Part shown: one piece after another, positions 17,191 through 52,366 of the stretch
How the letters are laid out: each line of letters begins with the position of its first letter
Numbering within the stretch: the stretch's first letter is position 1
Assembly (NCBI RefSeq): GCF_040954835.1
Contig: NW_027168298.1
Span: 799,001 to 863,000 of the forward strand
DNA length: 64,000 nucleotides
Source: Lepisosteus oculatus
Taxonomy: Eukaryota; Chordata; Actinopteri; Semionotiformes; Lepisosteidae
Direction: 5' to 3'
Position numbers and translations under genes: made by a program
The notes under the pieces: generated by a model
What the model was told of the DNA's origin: nothing
What the model saw: the letters and a program-made list of their open reading frames with translations, nothing else
Databases searched by the model: none

Positions 17191-18785
17191 AGGGGCGTTC
17201 AAGATGGCGCTCAGGTGGGAGGTAAAGTTTAGTGGTTGAGGATTTTTTTTGAGTTTTTCATGACCTGAATGTTAATTTTTGCTTTTTTTGACTACAGAAA
17301 AATAAGGACTTAACACTACTTGTTTAAACTTCAGTTATAATTGAAAGAAAAAAAAACGTTTTTTTTTAGGTTTAAGAATTTCGATATGAGTAACACTGGG
17401 AAAAGAAAAGAGAGTGCTGGGTCTTCGAAGGAGAAGTCTAAGAAACCTCAATCGTATATGTATAGCACTACAAGAAAATTGATGGCAACTAAAGGGAAAA
17501 GTGAAGCAGCTGGAGGGGACGTGGAAAGAGTGCTGGAGATGCGCTCGTACGCGAGCGTTCGCAGCCCAAGTGAGACTCAGCTGCCAGAGGAAGAGCCGGA
17601 GTCCCTGCCCAGCACACCTGTGAAAACCCCGGCAGCCAAGAGAGGAAGGGGCGACCTGACGCTGGAGGAGCTCCAGACCAACATCTTCAACATGATGGCA
17701 CAGAGCATGGGTGAGCTGAAGGAAATGATTTGATCTAATACAGTTGCAATCGAAAGTCTTAAAAAGTCCATGGACTGTGTGTTTAAAGAGGTTGAAGACT
17801 TAAAGAGTGAAGTAAAAGTTCTTAAACAAGTAAATACCAAACAAGAAAAGCATATTAAAGAACTTGAATTGAAAGTGAACGATGTAGATAGATACCGTCG
17901 ATGATGGAATTTAAAATTATTTGGAGTTAAAGAGGAACGTGATAAGGACCTTGTTGCAATAGTGAAGGGTATCTGTAAAAGGACCCTGCCGGACCAGGAG
18001 GACGTAATATCGGCCATTGACTTTGTTCACAGGCTCGGGAGAGCGAACATGTCTGGGCAAGTGCGCCCCAGATCGATTATAATACAGTTCACCAAGAGGA
18101 CGGCGAGGGACATGCTGTGGCGAGCGGCGAGGGGGAATGAGTATTTGAATGGGAACAAACTGAGGTTTGCAGAGGACCTGTCTGCCGCGGACAGGAGTAC
18201 CAGGAACCAGCTGTGGCCCCAGGTTGAAGCTGCCAGAAGAGAGGGGAGGAGAGCCTACTTTGTGGGAGCGAGGGCCTTTGTGGACGGGAAGGAGATTTGC
18301 TCCCAGTGACTGCTCAGTTAATGATTATGTTTGGTTATATTTGTTATACCACTATATACTAGTGTTTCTTTAGTGTTAGTTTGGAATGGTGTAGTTAAGT
18401 GTTAAGGACTGTTATAGTTCTGGTTCTTTGAAAAACTCAATAGTTTAGACAGTCTTAGAGTTAGTTATTTGCTTTTGTGTATGTCTTTTTCATGAATGCC
18501 AGAGGTACTCGAAATGTTGTTAAAAGAAAAACTGTGTGCTGAGTTTTATTTTTTACAGGAAACGCATGCATGTTGAAACTAAAGTTTATAAATAATTGAG
18601 AAATATTAAAGCAAGGAAAATATGATATGTGTAAAATATACAATTTGATCACATAATTACTTAATTACCTCTGGTAGTTAAATGCTTTTTTCTGCTGCGT
18701 TTTTTTTCTCTTGTACATGACTCTGATCCTCTTGTTGTATTTGTATTTGTAAATTCTATGTTTAATAAAAAAAAAATTAAAAAAA
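17191..18785 (+). mobile_element. ORF1-only L1-like retroposon (HAL1-like), full length
   Basis: A complete insertion of about 1.6 kb: a 5' end with AAGATGGCGCTC as in many L1 5' UTRs, one ORF1-type frame, a 3' UTR of about 460 bp and an A-rich tail. Direct repeats GCATTCTCTGGTGGT flank it (17176-17190 and 18786-18800). The uninterrupted site is seen in reverse at 33445-33475, confirming clean target-primed insertion. There is no ORF2, and the space between ORF1 and tail is too short for one. This mirrors mammalian HAL1 (L1 relatives with only ORF1), mobilised in trans. Confidence 0.85.
17386..18309 (+). pseudogene. L1-type ORF1 protein, two in-frame TGA codons
   Basis: One frame of about 307 codons from MSNTGKRKE to GKEICSQ. 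In order it has a basic and Ser/Pro-rich N terminus (about 1-95), a coiled coil (about 110-165; VEDLKSEVKVLK and KHIKELELKV), an RRM-like entry (NLKLFGVKEE), and a C-terminal domain with the typical IIIQFTKR, LRFAEDLS and AARREGRRAYF segments. L1 ORF1p is a trimeric RNA-binding chaperone of the L1 RNP. TGA at 17731 and TGA within CGTCGATGATGG (about 17902) interrupt it. Both could arise from CpG-type C-to-T change, so the copy looks young but dead. Confidence 0.8.
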
Positions 18786-44140: not shown

Positions 44141-44689
44141 ACAAGCTCCTCTTTAAGCTGTGGTTTAGTTTTGCATTCATGTGTTTCTAGAGCAGTTATT
44201 TATGGGGGTGGGTGGGTCTTTCACAGAGGCTCAGGACAAATCCCCCGCCTGAAAGTCTAATGTGTGCGTTCAGAGAGTCACAGGTCAAGAGCCAGGCAGG
44301 AGGACAATGGACAGAAGAGCCAACGAACTAAAAATAAAAGAACAGATATGAAAAAGCCACCATCTTTTTCTTTTTGACATTTTCCGACTTTCACGCAAGC
44401 CAGGACAAAGTTGCTTGTAGCTACTTGTGGATTCAAATACTCTATCGAGTGCTTTGATGAGTTTTTGCAATTTGATTGTCGTCCTGTCAGCCTGTTTCTG
44501 TTTTTTTTTTTCAATCTAGGGATGGAAAGTATGAGGGAAATGATGGAGCAATCAATAACCGCTCCGGAAAAATGGCAGAAAGAAATGGTCCGTCACTAAG
44601 GACATTTGTGAAGCAGAGGACTGACATCACCACAAAGGCGACACATTCTGCTGATGGTTTTGGTGAATAATGATTGAGGCTCGTTAAGA

Positions 44690-44815
44690 GAAAGGTAGCT
44701 GTGTCAGCATGCGTAGGCTGCAAAGGATCAAGCAAAGGTTTACTCCATGCTGAAAAGAGAAGAAAAGAAGCACAACGTTTCGACTGTGGAGCCTTCTGCG
44801 CCATCTTCTTTAGCG
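44690..44815 (-). repeat. Penelope-like or hammerhead-related dispersed repeat
   Basis: Minus strand: GGCTCCACAGTCGAAACGTT then a pyrimidine tract, CTTTTCAGCATGGA and GCCTACGCATGCTGACACAG. Related copies lie at 45690-45862, 46620-46690 and 49205-49330. The CGAAAC core resembles the 3' half of hammerhead motifs known from Penelope-like retroelements; the CTGATGA half is not intact. Assignment is tentative. Confidence 0.35.
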
Positions 44816-44849
44816 GTGATGATGTTTACATTGGAAAAACGGAGACATG

Positions 44850-44883
44850 CGTCCCTGGGTGGGCTTGAACCACCAACCTTTCA

Positions 44884-44917
<34 letters not shown>

Positions 44918-44923
44918 AGAGAC
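44850..44923 (-). tRNA. tRNA-Asn (GTT)
   Basis: 74 bp, GTCTCTGTGGCGCAATCGG, anticodon loop CTGTTAA, T arm TGGTGGTTCAAGCCCACC, end CAGGGACG. All stems pair apart from an anticodon-stem change (GTTAACTG for GTTAACCG). Its 3' end matches the primer-binding site of the LTR element. Confidence 0.9.
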
Positions 44924-45166
44924 TGACGGCTGCTTGTGCTCCCTACATTTGCAGGTTTATGGTCAAAGAAAATAATCACTTGCGCTTCTTGCAGCCGGCA
45001 ATCTTTTTCCACTGACAACCAAGAAATGGATTTCATCTTTCACAAGCTGTATGGATTTCTTCAAAAACAAGTTATTCCAGAAAGGAAATGAATTCTTGCA
45101 TTAAACTGAACCAAGCTGTACATGTTTGTCTGAAATGAGACATTCGGCACAACAAGACACGGAGAG

Positions 45167-45240
45167 AGGCACCGCTGGTATTCAGACCCAGGATCGCCTG
45201 CTTACCAGGCAGGCATTTTAAGCCACTAGGGAACAGCGCC
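45167..45240 (-). pseudogene. tRNA-Thr-like, anticodon GGT, D arm broken
   Basis: Acceptor GGCGCTG/CGGTGCC and anticodon stem CTGC/GCAG are good, with loop CTGGTAA giving GGT rather than AGT. The D arm TTCCCTAGTGGCTTAAAA has lost the A box and the T loop is altered. Not expected to be expressed. Confidence 0.7.
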
Positions 45241-46116
45241 AGCGGAGCACCGCGCTTTTACAGACACTTGGACACATCTGCGTTCGGTGTGCACTTAACC
45301 TGCTCTCTGAGCCCGTTGCCTCCGTCCCATTTAATAGCAGAACTGACGCCAAGAGAAATGATGAGAAATGGCATTTATCGGGCACTTTTCATGTCCAAGG
45401 AGCTCAATGCCCTTGACACCTCCCCAAGGCGACAGAGCTGTGCATTCTTTGGCGACACCATTTTTTCTTTTGTTTAATTTCTATACTTATTGATAGAATA
45501 AAAACGATATGTCATGTACTGTAAGGGAAATGTCTCTTTTCATGGGGAAAGCTAGCACCAGCAAATGTTGTGTTTAGAAGAAGTGATTTAACATGACACG
45601 TGACCTAATTTACCGGAGCAAAAGCTCACCCAGCAAGCCCTGCTTTACTTCTACAGGAGAGAAGTACTGTAGAGTCTGCAAGATGTTCAGCTGGGTACCT
45701 ACGTCAGCATGCCTCGGCTGCAAAGGAACAAGTAATAGGTTTATTGCATGCTGAAAAGAGAAAAACGGAAACACAGCGTTTCGACTGTGAGGTCTTCTCA
45801 CACCTGAAGAAGCCTCACACCTGTAAAAGGCTCCATGGTTTTCTTTCTTCTCTTTTCAACATGGAATACACCTATTGTCTGCAAGATGTGACAATTTCAT
45901 GGTGTTTTGGAAGAAAACCTTTTTTCTTTGAATTCAAAATCAATCGGAATTTCAGCACGACACATCAACACTTTTTCTGTTTTAAGGAGATGATATTTTA
46001 AACCTGATAAAAATAGTAGGAAACACAAGTTTCTTGCTGTGAAAATTTAGATGGGGAAGTGTACTACTAGTAGCAGTGTAGAGCTCTCTGTGGTGGAGTG
46101 CAAGCACGTGTTCTAT
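45241..46116. other. Thr flank and dispersed repeat, no gene seen
   Basis: 45260-45420 resembles the Ser-GCT/Thr spacer (compare 55200-55400). 45690-45862 holds an inverted pair of the Penelope-like motif (GCATGCTGAAAAGAG facing CTCTTTTCAACATGG). Confidence 0.5.
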
Positions 46117-48655: not shown

Positions 48656-49374
48656 TTGGAGCTCCTCTTTAAGCTGTGGTTTAGTTTTGCATTCATGTGT
48701 TTCTAGAGCAGTTATTTATGGGGGTGGGTGGGTCTTTCACAGAGGCTCAGGACAAATCCCCCGCCTGAAAGTCTAATGTGTGCGTTCAGACAGTCACAGG
48801 TCAAGAGCCAGGCAGGAGGACAATGGACAGAAGAGCCAACGAACTAAAAATAAAAGAACAGATATGAAAAAGCCACCATCTTTTTCTTTTTGACATTTTC
48901 CGACTTTCATGCAAGCCAGGACAAAGTTGCTCGTAGCTACTTGTGGATTCAAATACTCTATCGAGTGCTTTGATGAGTTTTTGCAATTTGATTGTCGTCC
49001 TGTCAGCCTGTTTCTGTTTTTTTTTTTTTCAATCTAGGGATGGAAAGTATGAGGGAAATGATGGAGCAATCAATAACCGCTCCGGAAAAATGGCAGAAAG
49101 AAATGGTCCGTCACTAAGGACATTTGTGAAGCAGAGGAGTGACATCACCACAAAGGCGACACATTCTGCTGATGGTTTTGGTGAATAATGATTGAGGCGC
49201 GTTAAGAGAAAGGTAGCTGTGTCAGCATGCGTAGGCTGCAAAGGATCAAGCAAAGGTTTACTCCATGCTGAAAAGAGAAGAAAAGAAGCACAACGTTTCG
49301 ACTGTGGAGCCTTCTGCGCCATCTTCTTTAGCGGTGATGATGTTTACATTGGAAAAACTGAGACATGCGTCCCT

Positions 49375-49411
<37 letters not shown>

Positions 49412-49574
49412 AAACGCGCTAACCGATTGCGCCACAGAGACTGACGGCCGCTTGTGCTCCCTACATTTGCAGGTTTATGGTCAAAGAAAACAATCACTTG
49501 CGCTTCTTGCAGCCGGCAATCTTTTTCCACTGACAACCAAGAAATGGATTTCATCTTTCACAAGCTGTATGGAT
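48656..49574. repeat. Direct duplication, copy 2
   Basis: Partner of 44141-45060. It ends at CTGTATGGATTTT where LINE sequence begins, so either the LINE was truncated by this duplication or the duplication ended at it. Confidence 0.9.
49368..49441 (-). tRNA. tRNA-Asn (GTT)
   Basis: Like 44850-44923, but with the consensus anticodon stem (GGCTGTTAACCG context). All stems pair. This is the better of the two Asn genes. Confidence 0.94.
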
Positions 49575-50387
49575 TTTGAAATGTATGGACGATGCCAGGT
49601 GTCCCACAACACCACAGCGCCGACACACCTTTGGTTGTCCCACATAAAAAACATAGCCATTGCAGGCGCCCAGCCGGATTGTAGAGGGCAGGTGCCTTAA
49701 GCCTCCATTTACATTGTCCGGTAGCAAGCGAACCTCGAATTTCCTTGCTCCTGTTTTTATACCGTCAACATCTCTAACCTCAGTTCCATGGTGGACGGTG
49801 CAGTACTGCTTAAGCCAGGTGTGAATGTCCTCCGTCTTTGCCAGTTCCGAGAACATAACAACATGCACCGTTTTCCTCTCTCTCTGTGTCAGAGGCTGCA
49901 AGTTGATCTTCTCAAGGGCAGGAACTTTCCCTCTTTTTGCCTCAAACACATCCACACATTGTTCAAACAGAGAATAGGTAGCAAAAACAACCTCAAATGC
50001 TTTCTGACCTGGGAGAGCGAAGATGAAATCCAAGTGCCGAGGTTCAAAGCCACGTTCCTTCTGTAACACTTTTCTGCTGAACTGCATACGATCCATGAAG
50101 AGGTCATCCAAAAGCTCAAAACGTACAGCATTCTTGCGGGATCCAAAGGTTGCCATCTCAAACTGCAAAACAAACACTGCTTCCACAAAACAAGAAAACA
50201 ATCCAACTACTCTAACTACAGGCTGATCAAGGTATCTCCCCTGCCAGGTAAGCCGAGAGCCGCAGGCAATGAGCCCAGAGCTGAACGGGCCCCACTGGCT
50301 CGTTTGTAAGGCCAGGTGCATTGCCAACCACGACCGGCAGGGCAGAGGCCTTGAAGGCGGCCTGGGCTCCTGCAGCTGTCCAGCCAC
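49575..50387 (-). mobile_element. Tx1/L1-like LINE, 5' UTR and partial ORF1
   Basis: ORF1 starts at 50156 (MATFGSRKNAVRFELLDD) and runs about 194 residues without a stop to the junction. Segments include RKTVHVVMFSELAKTEDI, FEVRLLPDNVNGGLRHLPST and a CCHC-type knuckle start, VCRRCGVVGH. Order and wording match the ZCCHC3-like ORF1 of Tx1-clade fish LINEs. ORF1 is cut at about 49575 by the 0.9-kb duplication. Upstream, about 230 bp of GC-rich 5' UTR end directly at the U5 gene. ORF2 is absent. Confidence 0.78.
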
Positions 50388-50505
50388 GCACTCTGGTTTC
50401 TCTTCATCTCGTACAAATCTTTTGCCTTTTACTAAAGATTTCCATGGAGAGGAACATGAATGAGTTCCATACAATTTTTGTGCTTCCCTGCCTTCGGGTG
50501 GGGCG
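50388..50505 (+). ncRNA. RNU5: U5 spliceosomal snRNA
   Basis: U5 holds exon ends in the spliceosome through its loop 1. The sequence begins ACTCTGGTTTCTCTTC (normally preceded by AT; here GC). It keeps loop 1 GCCTTTTACTAA between the stems AAATCTTTT and AAGATTT, the Sm site ACAATTTTTG and a 3' hairpin CCCTGCC-TTCG-GGTGGGG. An snRNA 3'-box-like stretch follows at about 50525. Upstream lies LINE sequence in opposite orientation, so the normal PSE and DSE are absent and the copy may be silent. U4 follows 226 bp downstream on the same strand. Confidence 0.9.
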
Positions 50506-50731: not shown

Positions 50732-50876
50732 AGCTTTGCGCAGTGGCAGTATCGTAGCCTGTGAGGTTTAGCCGAGGCGCGATTATTGCTAGTTGAAAAC
50801 TTTTCCCAATACCCCGCTTCCGCCGGTTTGCAATACAATCGGCGAAAGCAATTTTTGACAGTCTCGTCAGAGACTG
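50732..50876 (+). ncRNA. RNU4: U4 spliceosomal snRNA, third copy
   Basis: 145 nt, identical by eye to 44-188. The 230 bp between U5 and U4 include CGTTACAGCAACGACATGCC about 70 bp upstream, shared with the other U4 copies, a likely snRNA proximal element region. Confidence 0.95.
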
Positions 50877-52043
50877 AGCAAGGTGTTTAAAGACAGATTT
50901 TGTCATGGTAACATCATGGTAGAAAGAAACAAGCTTGTTACGTCTCAACAGAAACGCTCTTTAGCTCTTTCAGCGTTATGCAGAGAACAGCGTCTGTCGA
51001 GATCACTTTTGAGTCAGCGCGAAACGCCGTGTGCTGTCAGTTTGATTTCATATTGCTCGTAGCGGCGCCCGGCTTTTGTCTGTCAAACGTTAGGTTGCGC
51101 TTCTTCATGCTGCATCGTCGGCATGAGTGGAGCTTTTTAAACGTCTGTACTTACTGCGCCCCATAAGAAATCGTTTGTCCCCGTTCAAAAGAGATTGTGC
51201 GATGCCCTGCAGCGTTCGCAAAGCAAACCTTTGACAGTTTGAAAAGAGGAATTTATTCTGCTTCCTGTGCGTGCAGTAGTTACAAAGTTGAACGTCTTTA
51301 CACGATCTGCTGCAGTTTTCAGTGGGCGGGCTTTGTCAGATGGCTTGGAAAAACGCACTGTGTTTCGGCTCGGGAAACATCATGAGCAGTGTCCTGCATG
51401 TTTTCTGTGTATAGCTGTCTTTTAACGCATACAGAATTCATTCGAAATCATTGTAAGATTCTCCCTCAGTTCCGTTGTGCAGTGCTTTACCTCTTTCAAA
51501 AGGCTTCACTTTCCTAGTCACATTCCAAGGCTCATCGAACCCGGGCTGTTTCCTCCAGCGGTATAGTATTGCAGTGAGACAGCACGATGCCTGCAAGACT
51601 ATGTCACACTAAACGCCACAGATTGTGTTTGTCCGTTCGTGTCAGTCGTCCTGCAGCCACGGGAAGTGGGACACAAACATGCTGCAATGCTTTCAGGACG
51701 TTAGGATTTGTTTGTGCAACATCCGAGAAGAGTACTTGTGGCTTGAATGTGAACTGTACGTGCCCGCCCCCTTTCCTCTGTAGTGCATGAGTTCCTCCCG
51801 GCATGCCCTTCGTCATTGTTCTGTCATCTTGTATTTAAAGGGTTGTATTTCTGCTGCTGAAAATAAGCAACGGTTTTCTCACAACGCCCTTTGTTCCCGA
51901 CGGAGCCCTTGTCTGTCATGAAATTCTTCAAAACCTCAAGCTAGAAGAAGAAGACGACAAATATGAAGCGTTACAGCAACGACATGCCATGAGACGATTG
52001 ATAACGAGTTCCATAAGATCCCCGCGGTTGCCTGGCAACCGTC
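50877..52043. repeat. U4-block flank and U4/Gly spacer, no gene seen
   Basis: 50877-51450 equals 189-765. 51450-51550 is a Gly-TCC flank fused to a remnant GAACCCGGGCTG. 51546-51965 equals 16622-17070 in reverse. 51546-51610 and 52186-52260 are inverted copies, so the fourth U4 sits inside a small palindrome. Confidence 0.65.
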
Positions 52044-52184
52044 AGATTTGCGCATTGGCAGTATCGTAGCCTGTGAGGTTTAGCCGAGGCGCGATTATTG
52101 CTAGTTGAAAACTTTTCCCAATACCCCGCTTCCGCCGGTTTGCAATACAATCGGCGAAAGCAATTTTTGACAGTCTCGTCAGAG
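52044..52184 (+). pseudogene. RNU4: U4 snRNA copy with damaged ends
   Basis: Begins AGATTTGCGCATTGGC, two changes from AGCTTTGCGCAGTGGC. Its 3' hairpin is cut at GTCTCGTCAGAG by fusion to the inverted spacer (GCGTGACATAGTC). The central part and Sm site are intact. Confidence 0.85.
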
Positions 52185-52366
52185 CGTGACATAGTCTTGC
52201 AGGCATCGTGCTGTCTAACTGCAATACTATACCGCTGGAGGAAACAGCCCGGGTTCAATGAGCCTTGGAATGTGACTAGGAAAGTGAAGCCTTTTGAAAG
52301 AGGTAATGTCGACGCTTTTTTAACAGAGCACCAAAAAAGCGTCTTTTTTGAAGGCCTGGGTACTGA

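Follow-up and report, generated by a model that had tools for sequence, protein, structure and literature searches.

The window, by which we mean the whole stretch of 64,000 nucleotides that was analysed, contains the 5' end of a LINE next to a U5 snRNA gene. Comparison of this fragment with complete copies elsewhere in the assembly suggests that it comes from a young Tx1-type LINE whose probable targets are U1 genes and whose transcription probably begins at the U1 start. We put forward more tentatively, as having a little less than an even chance of being right, the fuller account in which the LINE lives in U1 genes, has taken over the U1 promoter, makes an mRNA that starts at U1 nt 1, and in new copies restores this head or carries it along wherever they land. 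The LINE may have entered U1 genes repeatedly and independently, U1 then being its true target, or it may have settled in U1 once and been amplified there afterwards. An earlier reading, made from the letters of the window only (here called the sequence-only reading), had proposed that a Tx1-like LINE is tied to an snRNA gene that is new as a LINE target. The analysis supports this tie, with U1 rather than U5 as the gene involved.

The U5 gene of the window and its surroundings

The U5 gene lies at 50388-50504 on the plus strand, where it had been placed before, and its structure is intact: it matches Rfam RF00020 with 89.9 bits (gathering score 40) over model positions 1-117, and no non-standard pairs are marked in the structure alignment. 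The LINE had been described as abutting nucleotide 2-3 of this gene with a 5' UTR of about 230 bp. In fact, the LINE starts at 50223, 164 bp from U5, and its true 5' UTR (50157-50223, minus strand) is 67 bp long and begins at the same point after U1 nt 32 as in other copies. Directly in front of it, at 50224-50252 on the minus strand, is a piece of U1 snRNA, nt 4-32, which is identical at 28 of 29 positions to the U1 gene of locus L021. The remaining DNA, 50250-50387, is the native upstream flank of U5. The same 138 bp are present with 95.7% identity at LINE-free U5 genes (two tandem genes in L013 and one in L021), and the second U5 gene of L021 is 95.9% identical to the window flank over 122 bp before the piece ends. 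Comparison with these LINE-free loci makes the joint between U1 nt 4 and the U5 flank visible: native and LINE-bearing sequences diverge at GGCTT, and the CTT at 50250-50252 is common to the U1 piece and the U5 flank. A replacement of the first AT of U5 by GC, also pointed out earlier, is indeed there, but it is the same in all four other U5 copies read (two in L013 and two in L021, three of them LINE-free and the fourth leaving the piece after 122 bp). The tandem U5 genes form a unit of 507-508 bp (L013 9325-9901; L021 9158-9778). Two candidate explanations fell on these tandem units: that a LINE had been captured at U5 nt 3, and that U5 and U1 form a divergent promoter pair. The idea that U5 is a retrocopy was dropped because the gene has native DNA upstream, and random breakage at the U5-LINE joint became moot since this joint vanished. 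A 9-bp inverted repeat adjoins U5, and no role was found for it.

The start codon of ORF1 is at 50156 on the minus strand, and 49587-50156 holds about its first 190 codons, as judged from the Pfam domains and from alignment with the relatives P0003 and P0004. There are two ZCCHC3-type RNA-binding domains (PF23058, 2.3e-24; PF23057, 8.7e-17) and a weak and partial match, below the cut-off, in which only the first part of a CCHC knuckle is aligned (PF00098). The minus-strand ORF1 of the sequence-only reading is therefore real, but the knuckle ascribed to it is incomplete. Ten aligned database relatives are 51-92% identical to this ORF1. The closest, P0004 and P0003 (best identity, 92%), are proteins of Atractosteus spatula with three CCHC knuckles each, and the knuckle reads LASSC in these proteins and LASSI in the window. 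LINE homology ends near 49587, inside the first knuckle, whereas in L010 and L011 the LINE runs on past the equivalent position. The LINE was thus cut at about 49587 and joined to a tRNA-bearing unit, and no more than its 5' end is left in the window. This unit (48660-49576) is the second of two copies found by self-BLAST, the other being 44144-45058 with 98.7% identity, and it contains a tRNA at 49368-49441 on the minus strand. About 10 bp of filler (49577-49586) lie at the joint, as judged from the sequence and from comparison with 44922-45300 and L010. The cut end of the LINE has TGTATGGA twice, at 49567-49574 and 49582-49589, which resembles repair with templated filler.

At Rfam gathering scores, the whole window (1-64000) contains 24 tRNAs, 4 U4 genes, and 1 U5 gene, and the DNA around these RNA genes is a mosaic of duplicated segments in which 192 breakpoint clusters were counted. 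In the test of whether random breakage could have made the U5-LINE joint, nine of the 192 clusters lay within 12 nt of RNA-gene ends, whereas shifted controls gave 4.3 on average (p 0.044), and four of these nine come from one U4 event. One U4 gene (50732-50873, plus strand; RF00015, 123.2 bits) adjoins U5 and is coamplified with it. At another copy (52044-52185), homology to other U4 units stops at the 3' end, near 52184, and 51487-51610 in inverted form takes over from there. Reading frames that look like an L1-type ORF1 are present at 17341-18306. Human U1 and U5 sequences were used for orientation, and searches of viral and prokaryotic collections gave no match.

Copies were searched across the 1.2-Gb assembly. 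Counting the one in the window, the stretch 50100-50500 is present in at least 40 copies with 99-100% identity (1594 candidates, of which 40 were scored). This number by itself would fit the LINE lineage specific for U5 that the sequence-only reading had proposed. However, all seven other loci compared (L002-L008) matched the window over 3.4 kb with 99.7-100% identity, masked stretches aside. Eight further places, mostly less identical ones, were also compared: four (L012, L014-L016) have most or all of 10 kb in common with the window, two (L009 and L013) share it down to 49533, and two (L010 and L011) part from it exactly at 49587. Because of these long flanks in common, the examined U5-LINE copies are one arrangement that was amplified with its flanks. 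Moreover, the edge of the LINE is not in U5 but at U1 nt 32, and the DNA on the 3' side of the LINE is U1. The supposed 5' UTR matches the upstream DNA of LINE-free U5 genes, an observation that the sequence-only reading had itself named as one that would refute its proposal, and which does so. We consider the probability of a U5-specific lineage to be practically negligible.

The complete element inside U1 genes

The whole LINE is present in a copy that we call A (L010 continued into L017), of which L011/L018 is a duplicate with 99.9% identity. In copy A, ORF1 begins at L010 5136, the ORF2 endonuclease lies within L010 6537-7592, and the reverse transcriptase and zf-RVT domains are found from L010 7475; both ORF1 and ORF2 are frame-shifted, and a short 3' UTR then follows. 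Two pieces of L010 gave the ORF2 domains Exo_endo_phos (2e-12), RVT_1 (2.2e-30), and zf-RVT (3.6e-8), and one database hit, 42% identical across 68% of the query, is named transposon TX1 protein of Danio rerio. The Tx1 clade is marked by an ORF1 with RNA-binding domains and CCHC knuckles. This element has such an ORF1, together with an AP-type endonuclease and a reverse transcriptase in ORF2. Complete copies are about 5.1 kb long and have a tail of AAATCG units. In all 41 copies scored (of 7047 candidates), ORF2 is open over 1153-1156 amino acids, which points to recent activity of the LINE.

Directly behind the LINE of copy A is a U1 gene that lacks its first part (RF00003, L017 283-418), and the absent part, nt 4-32, is found immediately before the LINE start. 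Complete copies lie inside U1 genes and are read in the same direction as these; they begin after U1 nt 32 and end before about nt 40, so that the order is U1 upstream DNA, U1 nt 1-32, LINE, U1 nt 40 onward, and U1 downstream DNA. DNA expected to contain the LINE start was read at 20 of 40 places. Sixteen of these 20 upstream pieces show the LINE start, and L053, L062, L067, and L070 do not. U1 up to nt 32 is directly before the LINE in all 16. In three of them (L052, L057, and L061), true U1 upstream DNA leads into U1 nt 1-32, and in the other 13 the U5 flank leads into U1 nt 4-32; this flank is rearranged further in L054, L063, and L069. The LINE starts at the same point after U1 nt 32 in L052, L057, and L061 and in the copies on contigs C326, C4, and C14, with a different first base in C14. 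When about 130 bp of U1 upstream DNA, U1 nt 1-32, and LINE were used together as a query, a full-length match was found at each of the 40 places scored (of 1302 candidates, on 15 contigs), so that such places number at least 40.

On the 3' side, the LINE tail is followed by GGTTCACCC (U1 nt 40 on) in 30 of 30 loci, a count that is biased in that the query contained U1. The bases before GGTTCACCC are TTGAAGT in 11 of these loci, TCGAAATC in 18, and TCGAAATA in 1. Empty U1 genes are present at L021 2389-2552 and as the second U1 of L042, and the latter reads TTGATCA-AGAAGGA-GGTTCACCC. U1 nt 33-39 are either missing or hidden in the LINE tail, and the exact 3' edge is blurred. Both ends were read with U1 for L052/L033, L057/L041, and L061/L049, and coordinates place U1 on either side of four copies on C605, of which two have an open ORF2. 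U1 and 5S rRNA genes are found close together on opposite strands (L017 283-1160; L021 1635-2552).

Copies outside the arrays and the number of insertions

Both ends were read for three of the 41 copies with an open ORF2, which are on the large contigs C14, C4, and C326. Only the C14 copy (one of three) has U1 upstream DNA, identical to that of L052 at 105 of 118 positions; this is followed by U1 nt 1-32, the LINE, and then directly a second LINE. In L074, one LINE with a tail of AAATCG units is directly followed by the start of another, which is a tandem insertion. The C4 copy (L075 and L076) lies in 7SL-like sequence (RF00017, 40.4 and 25.8 bits, below the gathering score of 70), begins with U1 from nt 4, and has the duplicated flank CGGGAGGCTGAGAC. 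The C326 copy begins with U1 from nt 1 or 2, as one A is shared with the flank, and has the duplication AATCGCGTCTCC(A); no RNA family was reported in its flanks. These two copies outside U1 have target-site duplications of 12-14 bp. Targeting is not strict, because two of the three off-array copies lie outside U1, one in 7SL-like sequence and one in other DNA. The C4 copy might suggest that the LINE has a general preference for structured RNA genes, U1 and 7SL among them, rather than for U1 itself. However, this is one case only, and the C326 copy lies in DNA without a reported family, so we consider such a general preference highly improbable.

As copies outside U1 also start with U1, the simplest account is that the RNA of the element would start at the U1 transcription start. 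The main rival is an element with a fixed U1 head and no targeting of U1. In this case, the 32 nt would have been gained once, either by a template switch or by one chance insertion in U1, and the U1-flanked copies would represent a single insertion amplified with the U1/5S arrays. Copies outside U1 that carry the head together with duplications are consistent with this, and so is the finding that the U1-flanked copies are nearly identical and located in repeat arrays. Because most copies are of this kind, copy counts cannot be equated with independent insertions. What argues for targeting is that the LINEs of L041 and L037 differ by 1.4% over 1688 bp, whereas the 400-bp flanks on the U1 side are identical among L041, L037, and the empty U1 of L042. 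Separate insertions would produce this combination, and so would homogenisation of the flanks by concerted evolution. In addition, the U1 gene of C14, with its clearly diverged upstream region, also has a LINE at nt 32. The 5' end of the C14 LINE is as diverged from L052 (67 of 77 positions identical) as is the U1 flank of C14, and the 3' end is identical at 72 of 72 positions; C14 does not settle the choice between independent insertion and amplification. Together, the divergence of flank versus LINE and the C14 copy lean towards several independent insertions at one U1 site. A U1-headed element without targeting, whether its head came from a template switch or from a chance insertion, seems to us rather unlikely.

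The codons of ORF1 do not separate these cases. The true-U1 copies (L052, L057, and L061) differ from the U5-fused copies A, L055, and L058 by 9-12 synonymous and 2-4 nonsynonymous changes over 195 codons, with dN/dS values of 0.06-0.13 (11 and 4 changes in an example pair). For three such pairs, the binomial P lies between 5e-5 and 5e-4 if the neutral share is taken as 0.77 and reaches 4e-3 if it is taken as 0.70. We rejected this synonymous excess as proof of two insertions of active elements because the same excess is present inside one fusion lineage: 12 other U5-fused copies, which have one common fusion with A, differ from A by 8-10 synonymous and 3-6 nonsynonymous changes (dN/dS, 0.10-0.22). 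This result is also in keeping with a U1-headed element without targeting. Within one lineage, the excess may come from conversion, continued activity, or mutation bias. Only the closest ORF1 pairs look neutral, with 2 synonymous and 3 nonsynonymous changes between the window and A and 2 and 4 between L055 and L058. The counts for the C-terminal part of ORF2 are weaker (for example, 8 synonymous and 12 nonsynonymous changes between L041 and L037; dN/dS of 0.3-0.8 in comparison with A).

In our preferred reading, the window carries the 5' end of a Tx1-type LINE that targets U1 and that entered a U1 gene after nt 32 and before about nt 40, pointing the same way as the gene. We infer that the element recognises U1 and primes there and that its RNA may be made from the U1 promoter and would therefore begin at U1 nt 1. 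With this beginning, the end of the cDNA could pair at U1 sites with the target's own nt 1-32, and copies that land elsewhere would keep the U1 head and be flanked by a target-site duplication of 12-14 bp. The sequences show that one lineage has U1 nt 4 joined, at the shared CTT, to the U5 flank at a distance of 138 bp from the gene. In the version present in the window, the LINE is also cut at the first zinc knuckle and joined to the tRNA unit, and the product was amplified with its surroundings. The U1 head on relocated copies makes it testable whether a LINE that resides in an RNA gene uses that gene's own promoter for its transcription. If this is true, an mRNA that is made from an snRNA promoter and starts with the splice-site-pairing end of U1 would be unusual RNA biology, as the U1 5' sequence in the transposon mRNA would be the part that pairs with 5' splice sites.

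Comparison with known systems

Chimeras of snRNAs and LINEs, such as U6/L1, arise by template switching, and in these the 5' part of the snRNA is fused to the LINE in the same orientation. The arrangement described here is different, as more of U1 follows the LINE and true U1 upstream DNA precedes it. Dewa and Mutsu, which belong to the Tx1 clade, differ from this LINE in having other targets. Like it, they are target-specific LINEs in small-RNA genes of fish, being inserted in the tRNA-Leu spacer and in 5S rRNA genes of zebrafish (PMC3706591). Dada-U1 of zebrafish is likewise found in U1 genes, but it is a DNA transposon with duplications of 6-7 bp, and the duplicated sequence, GCGAAT/GCGAAC, is not that of the nt 32/40 site (PMC3706591, PMC8869645).

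No LINE that targets U1 or U5 was found in the literature searched, whose coverage excluded most subscription papers and Repbase. A list from 2015 names as elements in snRNA genes only Keno and Utopia (both in U2) and the DNA transposons Dada-U1 and Dada-U6 (PMC4640811). Keno, of the Tx1 clade, is likewise an AP-endonuclease LINE known from fish that resides in an snRNA gene (PMC4640811). It differs in that its target is U2, whereas the LINE described here lies in U1 and takes U1 nt 1-32 along with it. Utopia, of an early-branched clade, resembles our element in its snRNA target, variable 5' edges, and occasional tandem insertions (PMC4640811), but it has a restriction-like endonuclease, and the endonuclease of the ORF2 described here is of the AP type. 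That paper places the start of the 3' flank of Utopia at U2 nt 39, and says the same for Keno, compared to about U1 nt 40 here (PMC4640811). LINEs on snRNA genes are rare, and a LINE targeting U1 would add a target to that of Keno and Utopia.
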